Shown here: positions 17,940-22,101 of the stretch, in pieces
Numbering within the stretch: position 1 is the stretch's first letter
Layout of the letters: each line of letters begins with the position of its first letter
DNA from: Pediococcus sp.
GTDB lineage: Bacteria; Bacillota; Bacilli; Lactobacillales; Lactobacillaceae
Reading direction: 5' to 3'
DNA: 22,117 nucleotides
Assembly (NCBI GenBank): GCA_022712335.1
Contig: JALAGR010000089.1
Location: 1 to 22,117 of the forward strand
Notes under the pieces: generated by a model
What the model saw: only the letters and a program-made list of their open reading frames with translations
The model's database searches: none
What the model was told of the DNA's origin: nothing
Position numbers and translations under genes: made by a program

Positions 17940-17983
17940 TACAGAATATGACAAAACTATGAGTTAACCTTACGCTGTTTTAA

Positions 17984-17989
17984 TATACT
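17984..17989 (+). promoter_or_regulatory. Candidate -10 box for the ABC-F transcript
   Basis: TATACT at 17984-17989 is the best -10 in the gap, but its -35 is poor at 16-18 bp spacing. If used, the transcript would start near 17996 and carry a leader of about 285 nt before the ABC-F start codon. Confidence 0.4.
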
Positions 17990-18067
17990 GTTACAAAATG
18001 GAGACATTTCTTGAAAAAGAGCGTATTCATTGTTAAGCTAAGGCTAGCTTATTAGGAAAGGATGTTG

Positions 18068-18091
18068 ATGGGATTGAAGATTGCAGACTAA
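18068..18091 (+). CDS. Putative leader peptide MGLKIAD
   Basis: Seven codons and a TAA follow AGGAAAGG (18054-18061) at a 6-base spacing, a good ribosome-binding site for so short an ORF. An in-frame ATG at 18062 would give MLMGLKIAD but sits directly on the ribosome-binding site. It lies in the leader of a ribosome-protection gene, where stalling peptides are expected. Confidence 0.45.
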   Translation: MGLKIAD

Positions 18092-18107
18092 TTTTGGAAA
18101 TATTGAG

Positions 18108-18149
18108 ATGACGATTTCTTTATTTTCGGGAGTAGTTTGTGGTTTTTGA
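18108..18149 (+). CDS. Putative leader peptide MTISLFSGVVCGF
   Basis: Thirteen codons and a TGA, with a weaker GGAAA at 18096-18100. Its codons for SGVVC contain the sequence that can pair with the region just before the ABC-F ribosome-binding site, so whether a ribosome occupies this ORF would decide which structure forms. Confidence 0.4.
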   Translation: MTISLFSGVVCGF

Positions 18150-18207
18150 TTCGATCGACGTGCTGGCCAAAAAAGTAAATTTTTATTGGTATTATGCACT
18201 TTGTATT

Positions 18208-18238
18208 GCATCAGGACTGCACACCTGGTGCTTTTTTT
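18208..18238 (+). terminator. Intrinsic terminator inside the ABC-F leader
   Basis: GCATCAGG (18208-18215) pairs with CCTGGTGC (18224-18231), one wobble, 8-base loop, followed by seven T residues. It lies 42 bases before the ABC-F start, so it either ends an upstream transcript or acts as a regulated premature terminator. ATGCA at 18194-18198 can pair with TGCAT at 18207-18211 and compete with its left arm. Confidence 0.8.
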
Positions 18239-18256
18239 GTGTCCTGAAAACAACTA

Positions 18257-18274
18257 CTCCTCGAAAGAGAGGAG
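18257..18274 (+). promoter_or_regulatory. Hairpin masking the ABC-F ribosome-binding site
   Basis: CTCCTC (18257-18262) pairs with GAGGAG (18269-18274) around GAAAGA. The GAGGAG is the ribosome-binding site for the ATG at 18281, so the hairpin would block translation unless opened. Confidence 0.6.
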
Positions 18275-18280
18275 ACATAA

Positions 18281-19765
18281 ATGGGAATAATTCAATTAAA
18301 AAACATAAGTTTTAAATATGATAATCAGATAAAACCAATTTTTGACCACGTAGAGTTGGAAATTGATGCGAAATGGAAATTAGGTTTGATTGGTAGGAAT
18401 GGTCGGGGAAAAACGACTTTGATGAAAATTCTGCAAAATCAAATTGAATATGAGGGGAAAGTTGAAACGAATCTGAAGTTTAACTACTTTCCCGCTAAAA
18501 TTAAAACACCGCAAGAAACAGTTCAAATGGTGTTGATGCAAATCACTGGGAGAGACTACTCTAATTTTTGGGAAGTCGAGCGAGAGTTAGACCAAATTGG
18601 TTTGCCAGATGAAATTTTGGAACAAACTTATGCATCTCTAAGCCCGGGCCAGCAGACTAAAGCACTTTTGGCGGCTATGTTTGCAGACCAAAACTCATTC
18701 CAATTGATTGATGAACCAACTAATCATTTAGATACTGCGGGACGAGTACTCTTAGCTAAATATTTAAAACAAAAACAAGGCTTTATTGTAATTAGTCATG
18801 ATCGCTACTTCTTAAATCAGGTCATTGACCATGTAATTTCGATTGATCGTGCTCAAATTAGTAGTTTCAAAGGGAACTATGAAACGTGGGCAACGGAGCG
18901 TGGAAATGCTGATGAACGTGAACGAAGTCTGAATGCGACCTTGAAAAAAGATATCAAGAAAATGGAAATGGCAACGCGCCAGAAACAAGAATGGTCGCGG
19001 GCTACGGAACGTGAGAAAGCAGGGGCAGCTGATAAGGGATTCGTAGGTCATAAAGCAGCGAAGGTAATGAGCAAAGCTTTAAACATCAGAGATCGCGCCG
19101 AAAAGAAAGTCGCGGATAAAAAGCAGCTATTGAAGAACGTTGAGATTCAAGATGAACTTCAAATGAACTATCAACCATATTCAGGGCCGCAATCGAATGC
19201 TTTAATTACGGTGCGTGATGTAGTTTTAAAACGAGATGGCAAGCAATTAAATCAACCAGTAAAATTTGAGCTGAAAACTGGGGATCGAATCGTTCTTAAA
19301 GGTGAAAATGGTTCAGGAAAATCGACATTGATTGCCGCTTTGCTTGGGCAGGAGAATTTAATTGCTGAAGGTGAAGCGCAATTACGTAACACCATACGTG
19401 TATCCTACTTACCACAAGATTTTGATCAGCTAAAAGGAAGTTTAGCAGATTTTGCAGCTGAAAAAGGAATTGAAGTTCAGAATTTGTTTTTGATGCTCAG
19501 AAAGTTAGGCTTTGAACGGACCATGTTTGATTATCAAATTGAACAGATGAGCATGGGACAAAAGCGGAAGGTTGCTTTAGCGCGTTCGCTGTGCGAAGAG
19601 GCTAATTTATATATTTGGGATGAACCGCTCAATTATTTAGATGTAATTACCCGAGAACAAATTCAAAATTTAGTTTTGAATTTCAAACCAACGCTTTTAG
19701 TAGTCGATCATGACCGTGAATTCGTAGATAAAATTGGAACTCAAACAATTAATTTAAAAAAATAG
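18281..19765 (+). CDS. Lsa-type ABC-F ribosomal protection protein
   Basis: A 494-residue soluble protein with two ABC ATPase domains and no membrane part. NBD1 has GRNGRGKTT (38-46), signature LSPGQ (120-124) and QLIDEPTNHLD (catalytic E145). A charged interdomain linker of about 190-300 includes the helical stretch that reaches toward the peptidyl transferase centre in this class. NBD2 has GENGSGKST (341-349), signature MSMGQ (423-427) and LYIWDEPLNYLD (E448). The opening WKLGLIGRNGRGKTT and the MSMGQ/WDEPLNYLDV block strongly recall Lsa(A) of Enterococcus, which confers resistance to lincosamides, streptogramin A and pleuromutilins by dislodging the drug from the ribosome. The resistance spectrum here is an inference. 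The leader upstream supports drug-responsive expression. Confidence 0.88.
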   Translation: MGIIQLKNISFKYDNQIKPIFDHVELEIDAKWKLGLIGRNGRGKTTLMKILQNQIEYEGKVETNLKFNYFPAKIKTPQETVQMVLMQITGRDYSNFWEVERELDQIGLPDEILEQTYASLSPGQQTKALLAAMFADQNSFQLIDEPTNHLDTAGRVLLAKYLKQKQGFIVISHDRYFLNQVIDHVISIDRAQISSFKGNYETWATERGNADERERSLNATLKKDIKKMEMATRQKQEWSRATEREKAGAADKGFVGHKAAKVMSKALNIRDRAEKKVADKKQLLKNVEIQDELQMNYQPYSGPQSNALITVRDVVLKRDGKQLNQPVKFELKTGDRIVLKGENGSGKSTLIAALLGQENLIAEGEAQLRNTIRVSYLPQDFDQLKGSLADFAAEKGIEVQNLFLMLRKLGFERTMFDYQIEQMSMGQKRKVALARSLCEEANLYIWDEPLNYLDVITREQIQNLVLNFKPTLLVVDHDREFVDKIGTQTINLKK

Positions 19766-19775
19766 GCTAATAGTT

Positions 19776-19803
19776 TTGACACCGTGTCAATTTGTGGTAT
19801 TCT
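19776..19803 (+). promoter_or_regulatory. Promoter of the hrtRBA operon
   Basis: Consensus -35 TTGACA (19776-19781), a 16-bp spacer and an extended -10 TGGTATTCT (19795-19803). The -35 lies inside the first operator palindrome, so a bound repressor would block RNA polymerase. Confidence 0.8.
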
Positions 19804-19824
19804 ACAATTACTGACACGGTGTCA
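19777..19824 (+). promoter_or_regulatory. Paired HrtR-type operators
   Basis: TGACACCGTGTCA (19777-19789) and TGACACGGTGTCA (19812-19824) are each palindromic and are exact reverse complements of each other, with centres 35 bp apart on either side of the -10. The form TGACAC-N-GTGTCA matches the HrtR operator described in Lactococcus lactis. Confidence 0.85.
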
Positions 19825-19830
19825 TTTTTT
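19777..19830 (+). terminator. Possible terminator formed by the two operators
   Basis: In RNA, the two 13-base operator copies would pair perfectly around a 22-base loop, followed by six T residues (19825-19830). This could end the ABC-F transcript, which has no other terminator before hrtR. Confidence 0.5.
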
Positions 19831-19849
19831 GTTTAAAGGAGGTAAGGCG

Positions 19850-20353
19850 GTGTCTTCAGAAATGTTGTTAAAGTTAAAACCTGAAAAAAGAACAGCAATT
19901 GAAGCGGCGTTGTTAGCAGAATTTATGCAACATCCGGTCGCAGAGGCGCAGGTTGCCCGTATCGTAAAGGGAGCGGGAATCTCGCGCGGCGCGTTCTATA
20001 ACTATTTTAAAGATTTACCAGATGCTTACCGTTATTTATACAAAATAGCAATGCAAGATATTCATCAGGGTATTCGAAAAAAAGGTAAGCGAAGTAAGGA
20101 CTTTGGTGATGAAACTCGACGATTCATTGAAAATACACAGACTAGTAAGTACTACGAACTGATCCAAATGCATTTTCACTATAATGAGGTCTATGTGACG
20201 CGGTTAGTGGCACCAGTTGAAGCAAATTCTGAACTTCAATGGGCCAAAATGACGCTTGCTCACGATACGATTCGGGGGGCGCTGATTGAACCAGAAACTG
20301 CACAAGCAAGACTTCGACAATTGGAAAAAGTCCTAAAAACTTTGGAGGAATAA
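19850..20353 (+). CDS. hrtR: TetR-family heme-responsive repressor HrtR
   Basis: A 167-residue TetR-type repressor. The N-terminal helix-turn-helix (about 10-57) reads VAEAQVARIVKGAGISRGAF followed by YNYFKD. The all-helical C-terminal ligand domain contains His72 (QDIHQG) and His138 (LAHDTIRGA), candidates for the two histidines that bind heme in lactococcal HrtR (His72 and His149 there, from memory). The start is GTG at 19850, seven bases after AAAGGAGG (19835-19842). The frame is open from 19784, but that start lies inside the promoter and operators. It is followed by the permease gene after a 2-bp gap. Gene order and operator both match L. lactis hrtRBA, so it should repress the operon until heme binds. 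Confidence 0.85.
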   Translation: MSSEMLLKLKPEKRTAIEAALLAEFMQHPVAEAQVARIVKGAGISRGAFYNYFKDLPDAYRYLYKIAMQDIHQGIRKKGKRSKDFGDETRRFIENTQTSKYYELIQMHFHYNEVYVTRLVAPVEANSELQWAKMTLAHDTIRGALIEPETAQARLRQLEKVLKTLEE

Positions 20354-20355
20354 GT

Positions 20356-21420
20356 ATGTTTCTAGCTTTGAAGGAAATTAAAAAAGAAAAATTACGATAC
20401 AGCTTAATCATTGGAATGGTTGTTTTAATTAGTTATTTAATCTTTATTTTAACTAGTTTGGCATTAGGACTAGCGCATGAAAATACGGATGCGATTCATT
20501 CCTGGAAGGCAGATACGGTAGTCTTGAATCAAGATGCGAACGTCAACCTTAGCCAATCATTAATTACCGATCAACAGGTTAAAGACCAAAAATTGACTAA
20601 TAAAGACGCGTTGATTGGTCAAGTGGCAGTGGTTGCTAAAGACAGTAAAGGAAAACAAGCTAAAATTTCTTCTACTTTTGTCGGAATCGACAACAATCAA
20701 TACATTGCTAAAAATTTAAAATTAACTAGTGGACATAAAGTTAAAAATAACCATGAAGTTGTTGTAGACGAAAAATTTGAACAAAGTGGCTATAAGCTTG
20801 GCGACAAGATGGAATTAAACGATGCAGATCAAGCATTCAAAATTGTTGGTTTCACCAAGAATGCGAAGTTAAACATTGCTCCAGTAATTTATGGAACGTT
20901 ACCAGCTTGGCAAGACCTAAAACATGCAACTCCGCAAACTAAAGCCAGCGCCATCGTTTCTAAAACTAAGAATCTGAAGGTCGATGAACCGCTAAAATCA
21001 TATAAGGTTAAAGCCTTCATCGAAAAATTACCAGGTTATTCAGCGCAGAACATGACGTTCTCATTGATGATTGGATTCTTAATGGTTATTTCACTAATCG
21101 TAATCGCAATTTTCCTATATATCCTAACGATTCAAAAGCTTCCAAACTATGCAGTATTACGAGCACAAGGTATCCCAAGTCGCGTTTTGGTTTGGAGTAC
21201 ATTGGCACAATCTCTAATTTTAGTACTAAGTGGGACGATAATTGGAACAGCATTAACAGCCATTACAGCTGCCATTTTACCATCGGCAGTACCAATGGCA
21301 TTTGATATCCCAATCCTAGCACCAGTAGCAGTTGGGTTAATAATCACAGGACTTTTAGGTGGTTTGCTACCAATTCGAAGTGTGTTGAAGTTGGATCCAG
21401 TAAGTGTAATTGGAGGATAA
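20356..21420 (+). CDS. hrtB: Heme efflux ABC permease HrtB
   Basis: A 354-residue FtsX/MacB-like permease. One N-terminal helix (about 15-38) is followed by a large extracellular domain (about 40-235) and three C-terminal helices (about 236-262, 280-312 and 318-338), the four-helix layout of HrtB. The FtsX core is KLPNYAVLRAQGIPSRVLVW and it ends with the usual PIRSVLKLDPVSVIGG. In related bacteria HrtB with HrtA removes toxic excess heme from the membrane. The ribosome-binding site GGAGGA lies at the end of hrtR, and the gene abuts hrtA directly. Confidence 0.85.
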   Translation: MFLALKEIKKEKLRYSLIIGMVVLISYLIFILTSLALGLAHENTDAIHSWKADTVVLNQDANVNLSQSLITDQQVKDQKLTNKDALIGQVAVVAKDSKGKQAKISSTFVGIDNNQYIAKNLKLTSGHKVKNNHEVVVDEKFEQSGYKLGDKMELNDADQAFKIVGFTKNAKLNIAPVIYGTLPAWQDLKHATPQTKASAIVSKTKNLKVDEPLKSYKVKAFIEKLPGYSAQNMTFSLMIGFLMVISLIVIAIFLYILTIQKLPNYAVLRAQGIPSRVLVWSTLAQSLILVLSGTIIGTALTAITAAILPSAVPMAFDIPILAPVAVGLIITGLLGGLLPIRSVLKLDPVSVIGG

Positions 21421-22101
21421 ATGATGACTGCAATTGAAATGAAGAATATTAACCAGATTTATGGAAAAGGAATCGCTAAAGTTCATGTATTACATGACGT
21501 TAACTTCAAAGCTGAACCCGGAACATTAAGCTTGATTATCGGGCCTAGTGGGTCAGGAAAAAGTACATTTTTAACGATTGGTGGGGGCTTGCGCACACCA
21601 ACGACTGGCCAAGTTAAGGTGAACGATCAAGATTATCATGAAAGTTCACGTAAAGATCTTGAAAAATTGAGACTTAATAACATTGGATTTGTACTTCAGA
21701 ACTATCATCTATTACCATTTTTGACGGTTAAAGATCAATTTAAGTTGGTTGATAAAGTTAAAAAAGAAGATAATCTATCGGCAGAAAGTTTGGATAAATT
21801 ATTGAAACAACTTGGTATTGACGATCTAGTCGATAAATTTCCGACTGAACTATCTGGTGGGCAACAACAACGCGTGGCAATTGCACGTGCTTTGTATCCA
21901 GACCCCGCGATTCTTCTTGCTGATGAACCTACGGCTGCTTTGGATAGCGCACGGGTTCAAGAAGTTGGGAAATTGTTCGCAGACTTAGCACATGACCGCA
22001 ATAAAGCCGTCGTAATCGTTACCCACGATATGCGATTAAAGTCGTTCGCTGATCAAATGTTTGAAATTAATGACGGTGTTTTGAAAGAAGCAACGTTGTA
22101 G
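21421..22101 (+). CDS. hrtA: Heme efflux ABC ATPase HrtA
   Basis: A 226-residue ABC ATPase, the partner of HrtB. Walker A is GPSGSGKST (41-49), Q-loop LQNYHLLP, signature LSGGQQQRVAIARAL from 144, Walker B ILLADEPTAALD (catalytic E169) and switch histidine H202. The ATG at 21421 directly follows the hrtB stop, with GGAGGA just upstream; a second ATG follows at once and could also be used. The stop is at 22099-22101 and the window ends 16 bases later, so no terminator can be judged. Confidence 0.87.
   Translation: MMTAIEMKNINQIYGKGIAKVHVLHDVNFKAEPGTLSLIIGPSGSGKSTFLTIGGGLRTPTTGQVKVNDQDYHESSRKDLEKLRLNNIGFVLQNYHLLPFLTVKDQFKLVDKVKKEDNLSAESLDKLLKQLGIDDLVDKFPTELSGGQQQRVAIARALYPDPAILLADEPTAALDSARVQEVGKLFADLAHDRNKAVVIVTHDMRLKSFADQMFEINDGVLKEATL

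Follow-up and report, generated by a model that had tools for sequence, protein, structure and literature searches.

In attenuators of the erm(C) type, a stalled ribosome controls mutually exclusive pairings around a Shine-Dalgarno (SD) sequence; no intrinsic terminator takes part, and the leader peptide is relatively long and carries a sequence-specific arrest motif. The leader described here precedes an Lsa-like ABC-F gene in a 22,117-nucleotide (nt) block of a Pediococcus draft genome (the window, that is, the whole stretch of DNA analyzed; family Lactobacillaceae, order Lactobacillales, by taxonomy look-up). It shares with the erm(C) type the mutually exclusive pairings around an SD and signs of control by a stalled ribosome, and differs from it by an intrinsic terminator and by a very short upstream open reading frame (uORF).

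The closest match is the vmlR leader of Bacillus subtilis, a four-stem-loop attenuator that has been dissected by experiment (Takada et al. 2022, PMC9226507; this and the other papers named here are cited from the parts available, and what is said of them extends to those parts). Both leaders have a uORF within stem-loop 1 (SL-1), SL-2 at an apex, a terminator as SL-3 and an SD-covering SL-4, and in both a pairing of the induced form would compete with SL-4. The vmlR leader measures 219 nt and that of Pediococcus about 235 nt (about 18046-18280). The leaders differ as follows: the vmlR uORF encodes MIN and lies in a bulge, whereas that of Pediococcus starts with UUG, encodes MKIAD and lies in a paired left arm; the gene is Lsa-like, unlike vmlR; and the Pediococcus switch is a prediction from sequence and folding. 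The NusG pause motif TTNTTT found in vmlR between SL-1 and the terminator is absent from that place in all seven conserved Pediococcus leaders (the window has motifs of this type in its T tract and, within SL-1, at 18116 and 18120), and we treat it as a detail of vmlR that does not define the class.

Attenuation linked to uORFs is said to be the common mode of control for ARE-ABCF genes (PMC10201436, PMC12421871). The cplR leader of Clostridioides difficile (Obana et al. 2023, PMC10201436) joins transcriptional to translational attenuation and has a very short uORF, a combination like the one considered here, but its SD lies inside the terminator hairpin itself, unlike that of Pediococcus. The uORF consensuses given there for CplR, MR[I/M], and VmlR2, MK[L/Q], resemble the MR[N/I] and MK[I/N] of the present leaders, while the uORF predicted there for LsaA, MAGN, contrasts with the UUG-started MKN and MKI of other Lactobacillales families in our set. 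The are5sc leader of Streptomyces coelicolor (PMC12421871) is similar in its UUG-started micro-ORF, MLV, at whose start codon lincosamides, pristinamycin IIA and tiamulin stall the ribosome, and in its predicted antiterminator; it belongs to an actinobacterial ARE5 gene, and no rule about UUG is stated in the available parts.

We read the Pediococcus leader as a ribosome-mediated transcription attenuator of the vmlR type, with a probability of about 0.85. The locus would thus add to the known class of vmlR-type attenuators of ARE-ABCF genes, and the least expected part of it is the near-invariant UUG start of its uORF.

Anatomy of the leader

The leader and its gene comprise the following elements.

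18011-18039, plus strand: probable promoter, with the -35 element TTGAAA at 18011-18016, a 17-nt spacer and the extended -10 element TGTTAAGCT (TGtTAAGCT) at 18031-18039
18054-18064, plus strand: SD of the uORF, AGGAAAGGATG, with an anti-SD duplex of -8.1 kcal/mol (16S) for the UUG at 18074
18064-18159, plus strand: SL-1, the anti-antiterminator hairpin of 42 pairs, from folding and alignment, with the uORF within its left arm
18074-18091, plus strand: uORF with UUG start, MKIAD and stop (5 codons), conserved across leaders
18108-18149, plus strand: 13-codon ORF, MTISLFSGVVCGF, judged non-functional as an ORF
18123-18137, plus strand: 5' arm of a long-range helix (core GGAGTAGTT at 18129-18137), from folding and alignment
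18138-18221, plus strand: antiterminator, formed by the right arm of SL-1 (beginning at 18138) and a stretch that ends with the terminator's left arm (at 18221), its apex being SL-2
18160-18199, plus strand: SL-2, the hairpin at the antiterminator apex, from folding
18208-18238, plus strand: SL-3, the intrinsic terminator predicted by a terminator scan, with stem 18208-18231 and seven T at 18232-18238
18252-18267, plus strand: 3' arm of the long-range helix (core AACTACTCC at 18252-18260, U18261 bulged), from folding and alignment
18257-18274, plus strand: SL-4, CTCCTC (18257-18262) paired with GAGGAG (18269-18274), which covers the ABC-F SD (-10.3 kcal/mol)
18281-19765, plus strand: Lsa-like ABC-F gene, 494 residues, with ATG at 18281, from NCBIfam profiles and a solved relative

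From the anatomy, conservation, covariation and predicted folds we infer drug induction, the site of stalling, the direction of the switch and a possible release of the SD. Without drug, ribosomes would translate the UUG-started uORF and leave, and SL-1 would form; its right arm would then be barred from pairing downstream, SL-3 would form, and transcription would end before the ABC-F gene. An inhibitor of the peptidyl transferase, by the precedent of vmlR most likely a pleuromutilin, a lincosamide or streptogramin A, would hold the ribosome at or near the uORF start and so cover the left arm of SL-1. The freed right arm would pair with the left arm of the terminator to give the antiterminator, with SL-2 as its apex, and RNA polymerase would enter the gene. 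In the read-through transcript, 18123-18137 could pair with 18252-18267 and exclude SL-4, which would form a second, translational layer.

Transcription probably starts near 18046. TTGAAA stands at an equal place in four of the six other conserved Pediococcus leaders, the remaining two having TTGCAA (L018) and TTGCAT (L015); a consensus promoter scan of the window did not list this promoter, whose -10 element is weak. The TTG at 18011 also opens a 14-codon frame, MKKSVFIVKLRLAY, which we rejected as a leader peptide and read as promoter because it coincides with the TTGAAA kept at -35 distance from the extended -10.

Conservation was assessed in alignment A1, comprising seven Pediococcus leaders (the window and L013-L018; those of G002 and P. 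acidilactici are nearly identical). The SL-1 region folds far more stably than shuffled sequence: the energy of 18060-18165 is -47.9 kcal/mol, whereas its shuffles average -19.0 (standard deviation 2.8; 0/300 shuffles as low). Its helices 1-3 have 93.4, 91.7 and 100% of alignment cells paired. Neither SL-1 nor the terminator figured in a first-pass annotation of this DNA, which had read the leader by the logic of erm translational attenuation: a ribosome stalled further upstream would free 18129-18137 for pairing with 18252-18260 and so open the ABC-F ribosome-binding site, the upstream partner lying in the 13-codon ORF. That purely translational logic is unsupported because the terminator sits between the leader ORFs and the gene, where erm control acts on the SD and has none, and because the layout matches that of the transcription attenuator of vmlR.

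The 13-codon ORF does contain the upstream partner, as had been said, but makes a poor functional part. Its SD is worth -3.3 kcal/mol, against -8.1 for that of the UUG-started uORF; its length is kept in four of the seven leaders (window, L013, L016 and L017), its counterpart stopping after 4 codons in L014 and running to 51 in L015 and 22 in L018; and a ribosome placed there would mask the very arm that is to be freed. Its first codons belong to the apical hairpin of SL-1, GAGAT-GACG-ATTTC, and what is conserved there is the hairpin G[A/G][A/G]AU-GACG-AUUUC (helix 3). A conserved leader peptide with room for an arrest motif, as erm-type control would use, was not encountered in the leaders; the conserved uORF has 5 codons. 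The likely sensor is this MKIAD uORF. An erm-type switch is therefore unlikely as a full account, and the evidence in its favor concerns the long-range helix, discussed below.

Terminator-like hairpins recur in other leaders. We used 94 Lactobacillaceae leaders (the window, 33 loci and 60 further ones; gene matches are listed in 134 genomes, some with two), each placed by a gene start set from the protein match, at which in 2/94 the codon is not ATG, TTG or GTG. Genomes were taken one per species, and as the species are related the counts are not independent events. A terminator-like hairpin lies at -110 to -20 in 58 of these 94 leaders and in none of 34 displaced windows; within 330 nt the figure is 62/94. 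Among 19 leaders from other families (the best-scoring loci from 52 genomes matched, 8 of the 19 from one genus, g57, and one, L155, with its gene start off by 24 bases at a contig end), nine have such a hairpin. In one leader, L033 (G077), about 500 nt long, the uORF block lies at -504, followed by extra sequence and a terminator-like hairpin at -61; another, L121 (G090), keeps the attenuator before a broken ABC-F gene (match to residues 142-488, internal stop).

A metabolite-binding riboswitch or the target of a protein could likewise be long, conserved and strongly structured and end in a terminator, as this leader does. We consider either reading very unlikely here: the window has no Rfam match at the gathering score, and 17980-18300 has none even at E up to 1; the SD-led uORF keeps its start codon and second residue where much other sequence varies; and the gene is of the ribosome-protection type. 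A search of the window for tRNA genes also found none.

Covariation of the alternative structures

Compensating changes were counted for two structures derived from the window. The repressed form (SL-1, SL-2, terminator and SL-4) has 87.9% of cells paired in the seven leaders and 10 pairs with changes in both bases (two-sided changes; shuffled mean 4.9, with 10 reached by 1/500; versions slid along the alignment 2-8). In this form SL-1 and the terminator hold up well across the alignment; pairing is poorer in the inner helix of SL-2 (67.9%) and in SL-4 as placed from the window (helix 8, 64.3%), the low SL-4 figure arising in part because that stretch aligns badly. The induced form (antiterminator and long-range helix) has 84.1% of cells paired and 13 two-sided changes (shuffled mean 5.9, 0/500; slid versions 3-6). 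Taken alone, the antiterminator has 83.9% of cells paired, with two-sided changes in 8 of its 32 pairs (shuffles average 3.6; 2/500 reach 8).

The long-range helix is the pairing from which the analysis started. Its two cores, CTCCTC, GAGGAG and the 13-codon ORF lie exactly where the first-pass annotation had put them, and the helix is indeed extendable, to a size that had been understated: UUUUCG (18123-18128) pairs with CGAAAG (18262-18267), so that with U18261 bulged 15 pairs form in total. As had also been claimed, this helix and the SD-covering hairpin are mutually exclusive; the antiterminator lies nested within the helix and is compatible with it. A perfect complement of at least 9 nt between 18046-18207 and 18239-18268 arises in 118/5000 dinucleotide shuffles, and a duplex of equal stability in 18/1000. 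The complement by itself is thus only moderately unusual, and the comparison of species therefore carries the weight. Covariation across related leaders, a check set beforehand, was found: 5 of the 15 pairs have two-sided changes (shuffles average 2.3; 5/500 reach 5), and 84.6% of cells are paired, compared with 76.8 (standard deviation 1.7) in shuffles and 37-59% when the 3' arm is slid by 1-3 columns. L018 (G005) forms a 13-pair helix with other letters (CAGAGGUAGUCUG with CAGAUUACUUCUG). In genus g13 (alignment A3 of six leaders; other g13 leaders, L031, L037 and L119 as longer, were left out) a helix in a like place reads GUUCAA/UUGAAC, GUUCGG/CCGAAC, GUUCAG/CUGAAC or GCUUAG/CUGAGC in five of the six, L045 being without a partner.

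Chance complementarity in an unregulated leader is a most improbable explanation and largely refuted, given two-sided changes in both alternative structures and a terminator and uORF conserved beyond their controls. What can be said for it is the shuffle frequency of the 9-nt complement just given and the outcome of a duplex test on the long-range region, run on the 53 leaders that have both uORF and terminator, which falls below 0.05 against shuffles in 20 only (4/7 in Pediococcus); the helix is not universal. The covariation counts are support and not proof, because related sequences may beat shuffles without any structure, and a structure derived from one row is favored over its slid versions.

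How far the leader itself extends was followed with a covariance model (R1) of the Pediococcus leader. Under strict filters it gave 10 matches in 10/397 genomes, all 10 before an ABC-F gene, and a search with the leader DNA returned the seven Pediococcus copies and short matches elsewhere (11/397 genomes). Against 15 distant leader loci, R1 matched six at E up to 1, five of them below 0.01; homology beyond Pediococcus is thus clear in some genera only. The long leader L033 is matched with 33.9 bits. Within Pediococcus, 11 genomes have the gene (window included), and the conserved leader precedes it in seven. The four others, L019-L022 (G008, G007, G004 and G006), are more distant, with ABC-F proteins of 45-46% identity, a different leader and an MRN uORF, and stand outside A1; Pediococcus genome G009 has no ABC-F match at 1e-100.

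Predicted terminator choice with a ribosome on the uORF

The predicted effect of a stalled ribosome was followed by folding the same 53 leaders with a ribosome footprint placed on the uORF. In the window the terminator probability drops from 1.00 to 0.00 and the antiterminator, which arises in the nascent-RNA fold, replaces it. In three other conserved Pediococcus leaders the probability falls to 0.01, 0.02 and 0.33. A drop of more than 0.2 is seen in 4/7 Pediococcus leaders and in 18/53 overall. The antiterminator and terminator of the window have close energies (-38.6 and -36.8), as would be expected of a switch. The window thus has, by folding and by covariation, an antiterminator incompatible with SL-1 and with the terminator; in L015 it is weak. 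Signs of the ribosome-controlled switch that had been proposed, with stalling 5' of the helix, are supported, and its likely sensor moves to the UUG-started uORF.

Several results speak against a vmlR-type attenuator. Equilibrium folding retains the terminator despite the ribosome in L013 (0.88), L015 (0.89) and L018 (0.95); in L013, L015 and L017 the terminator is already part of the lowest-energy RNA 3' of the placed ribosome, and the antiterminator of L015 has hardly any overlap with it. The terminator probability rises in 8/53 leaders, all from 0.0 and four of them the distant Pediococcus with the other leader; in these eight, we suspect, the hairpin picked out by the scan is not the right one. 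Further pair types, as a second measure of covariation, show no clear excess, being reached by 147, 69, 333 and 56 of 500 shuffles for the repressed form, the induced form, the long-range helix and the antiterminator, respectively. The remaining points on that side concern the SD of the gene.

The long-range helix and the Shine-Dalgarno sequence

The first-pass annotation had the long-range helix free the ABC-F start. In the window this was not borne out by folding: SD accessibility goes from 0.15 to 0.16 with a ribosome on the UUG-started uORF, and is 0.16 with the antiterminator enforced. In the other six Pediococcus leaders it is 0.01-0.39 with the antiterminator enforced and 0.02-0.31 when free; the gain is at most 0.08 in all seven. 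Over the 53 leaders, the ribosome raises it by more than 0.2 in six and lowers it in one. The window fold that combines the antiterminator with SL-4 (-47.3) is stabler by 4.3 kcal/mol than that with the long-range helix and an open SD (-43.0). In vmlR itself, disruption of SL-4 caused a moderate loss of induction and not derepression (PMC9226507).

An erm-type switch would call for a rise in SD accessibility, which the window does not have. Nevertheless, both pairings, the helix and SL-4, are present and cannot form together, covariation is seen for the helix in Pediococcus and for its counterpart in g13, and in P. stilesii, the one leader of the seven that responds, the ribosome alone raises SD accessibility from 0.20 to 0.52 in one folding run and to 0.76 in another (with the antiterminator enforced it is 0.20, no gain).

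Alternatively, the leader may attenuate transcription while the long-range helix has no translational role, and instead blocks SL-1 from re-forming after read-through or protects the mRNA. This carries appreciable weight, and we lean against it. The helix and the antiterminator are nested, yet their energies leave the SD closed; in the lowest-energy forms of the window and of P. pentosaceus an extended helix pairs the SD with about 18115-18121; and the vmlR authors say that SL-4 might affect the antiterminator indirectly (PMC9226507). On the other hand, by our reading of the folds, the anti-SD arm of SL-4 shares bases with the 3' arm both in the window and in the majority of the other Pediococcus leaders; a coincidence of that kind would be strange. 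For the vmlR-type attenuator that we prefer, a translational layer in which the long-range helix releases the SD is accordingly put no higher than possible in these folding models, because folding leaves the SD of the window covered; the pairing itself is conserved.

The UUG-started uORF across Lactobacillales

A search blind to the peptide, which allowed all three start codons and kept the top-scoring SD-led ORF of 2-8 codons in each leader, found one in 78/94 Lactobacillaceae leaders and none in 16. Its start is TTG in 76 of the 78, ATG in one (L014) and GTG in one (L108), and in 72/94 leaders it is a TTG-started M-[K/R]. First-order Markov shuffles (n = 940) gave a short ORF in 273, a TTG start in 142 and TTG with K/R in 20; the corresponding counts in displaced or antisense real DNA (n = 247) were 42, 20 and 7. 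The ABC-F genes themselves start with ATG in 84/94. In the set from other families the best short ORF is TTG-started in all 19 leaders, with K second in 15 (MKN 11, MKI 2, MKK 1 and MKF 1).

A search targeted at the TTG-started M-[K/R] uORF found it in 77/94 leaders and 19/22 genera, at 2-8 codons (3 codons in 45/77). A purine-rich, G-rich stretch precedes the UUG at a matching distance in these 77; TTGA[A/G][A/G] is present in 73 and the full context CC[A/G]TTGA[A/G][A/G] in 38. The nucleotide just 5' of the UUG tends to match the second position of codon 2: both are A in 33 leaders and both G in 30, and 14 are mixed. A DNA pattern coding for MKIANR or MKTANR was found in 7/397 genomes, always before an ABC-F gene, one of which is broken. 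As other starts for the window uORF, ATG 17998 and ATG 18068 were considered and not preferred; ATG 18068 is in frame with UUG 18074 and has the weaker SD (-5.7 vs -8.1 kcal/mol), and an in-frame ATG within 12 nt 5' of the UUG is present in 10/77 leaders, at least seven of them from Pediococcus.

The available parts of the papers mention one UUG-started uORF, are5scL1 of Streptomyces (PMC12421871). The uORFs of ARE-ABCF genes have been given as MIN, MK[L/Q], MR[I/M] and MAGN, with UUG unmentioned in the available parts (PMC10201436), and a literature search, which left subscription papers mostly outside its reach, found no rule of a UUG start for these uORFs. We propose tentatively, at odds somewhat short of even, that Lsa-like ABC-F attenuators across Lactobacillales share one sensor, a 2-8-codon ORF, mostly M-[K/R], that requires UUG as a working part. 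The UUG might set a slow or drug-sensitive initiation, or double as a base-paired element of SL-1; the switch would then read the state of the ribosome at a weak start codon. If so, predictions restricted to AUG would miss the sensor.

The ABC-F gene and its surroundings

The gene had been called Lsa-type, which holds as a likeness and not as family membership. The protein passes the NCBIfam profile ribo_prot_ABC_F (435.7 bits, cut-off 380), and its best solved structural relative is Lsa(A), 7nhk; on ABCF_Lsa_all (NF000167) it scores 586.1 bits, and because this is below the curated cut-off of 750 it is Lsa-like but outside the curated Lsa family. From its sequence, the gene is predicted to be of the ribosome-protection, antibiotic-resistance type, and its drug spectrum is a matter of prediction at most. 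The closest copy among named genomes is that of P. pentosaceus DSM 20336 (84% identical protein). Open reading frames of the window that we take, by recognition, to be recF, gyrB, gyrA, ssb and a dnaB-type helicase mark the block as presumably chromosomal.

Downstream of the ABC-F gene come a TetR-type regulator and, behind it, an ABC transporter (19784-22101). The stretch in between, 19776-19824, holds a promoter-like TTGACA-16-TATTCT adjoining the palindromes TGACACCGTGTCA and TGACACGGTGTCA, which are likely an operator.

Implications

The likely sensor of this leader shifts from a 13-codon to a five-codon ORF, and the conservation of its UUG start poses a clear question to test. With the reading preferred here, the Lsa-like ABC-F gene of Pediococcus, a food genus, is probably one of those that stay silent as long as no drug is there. 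Such probable drug-dependent silence matters when genes of this kind are judged by sequence alone.

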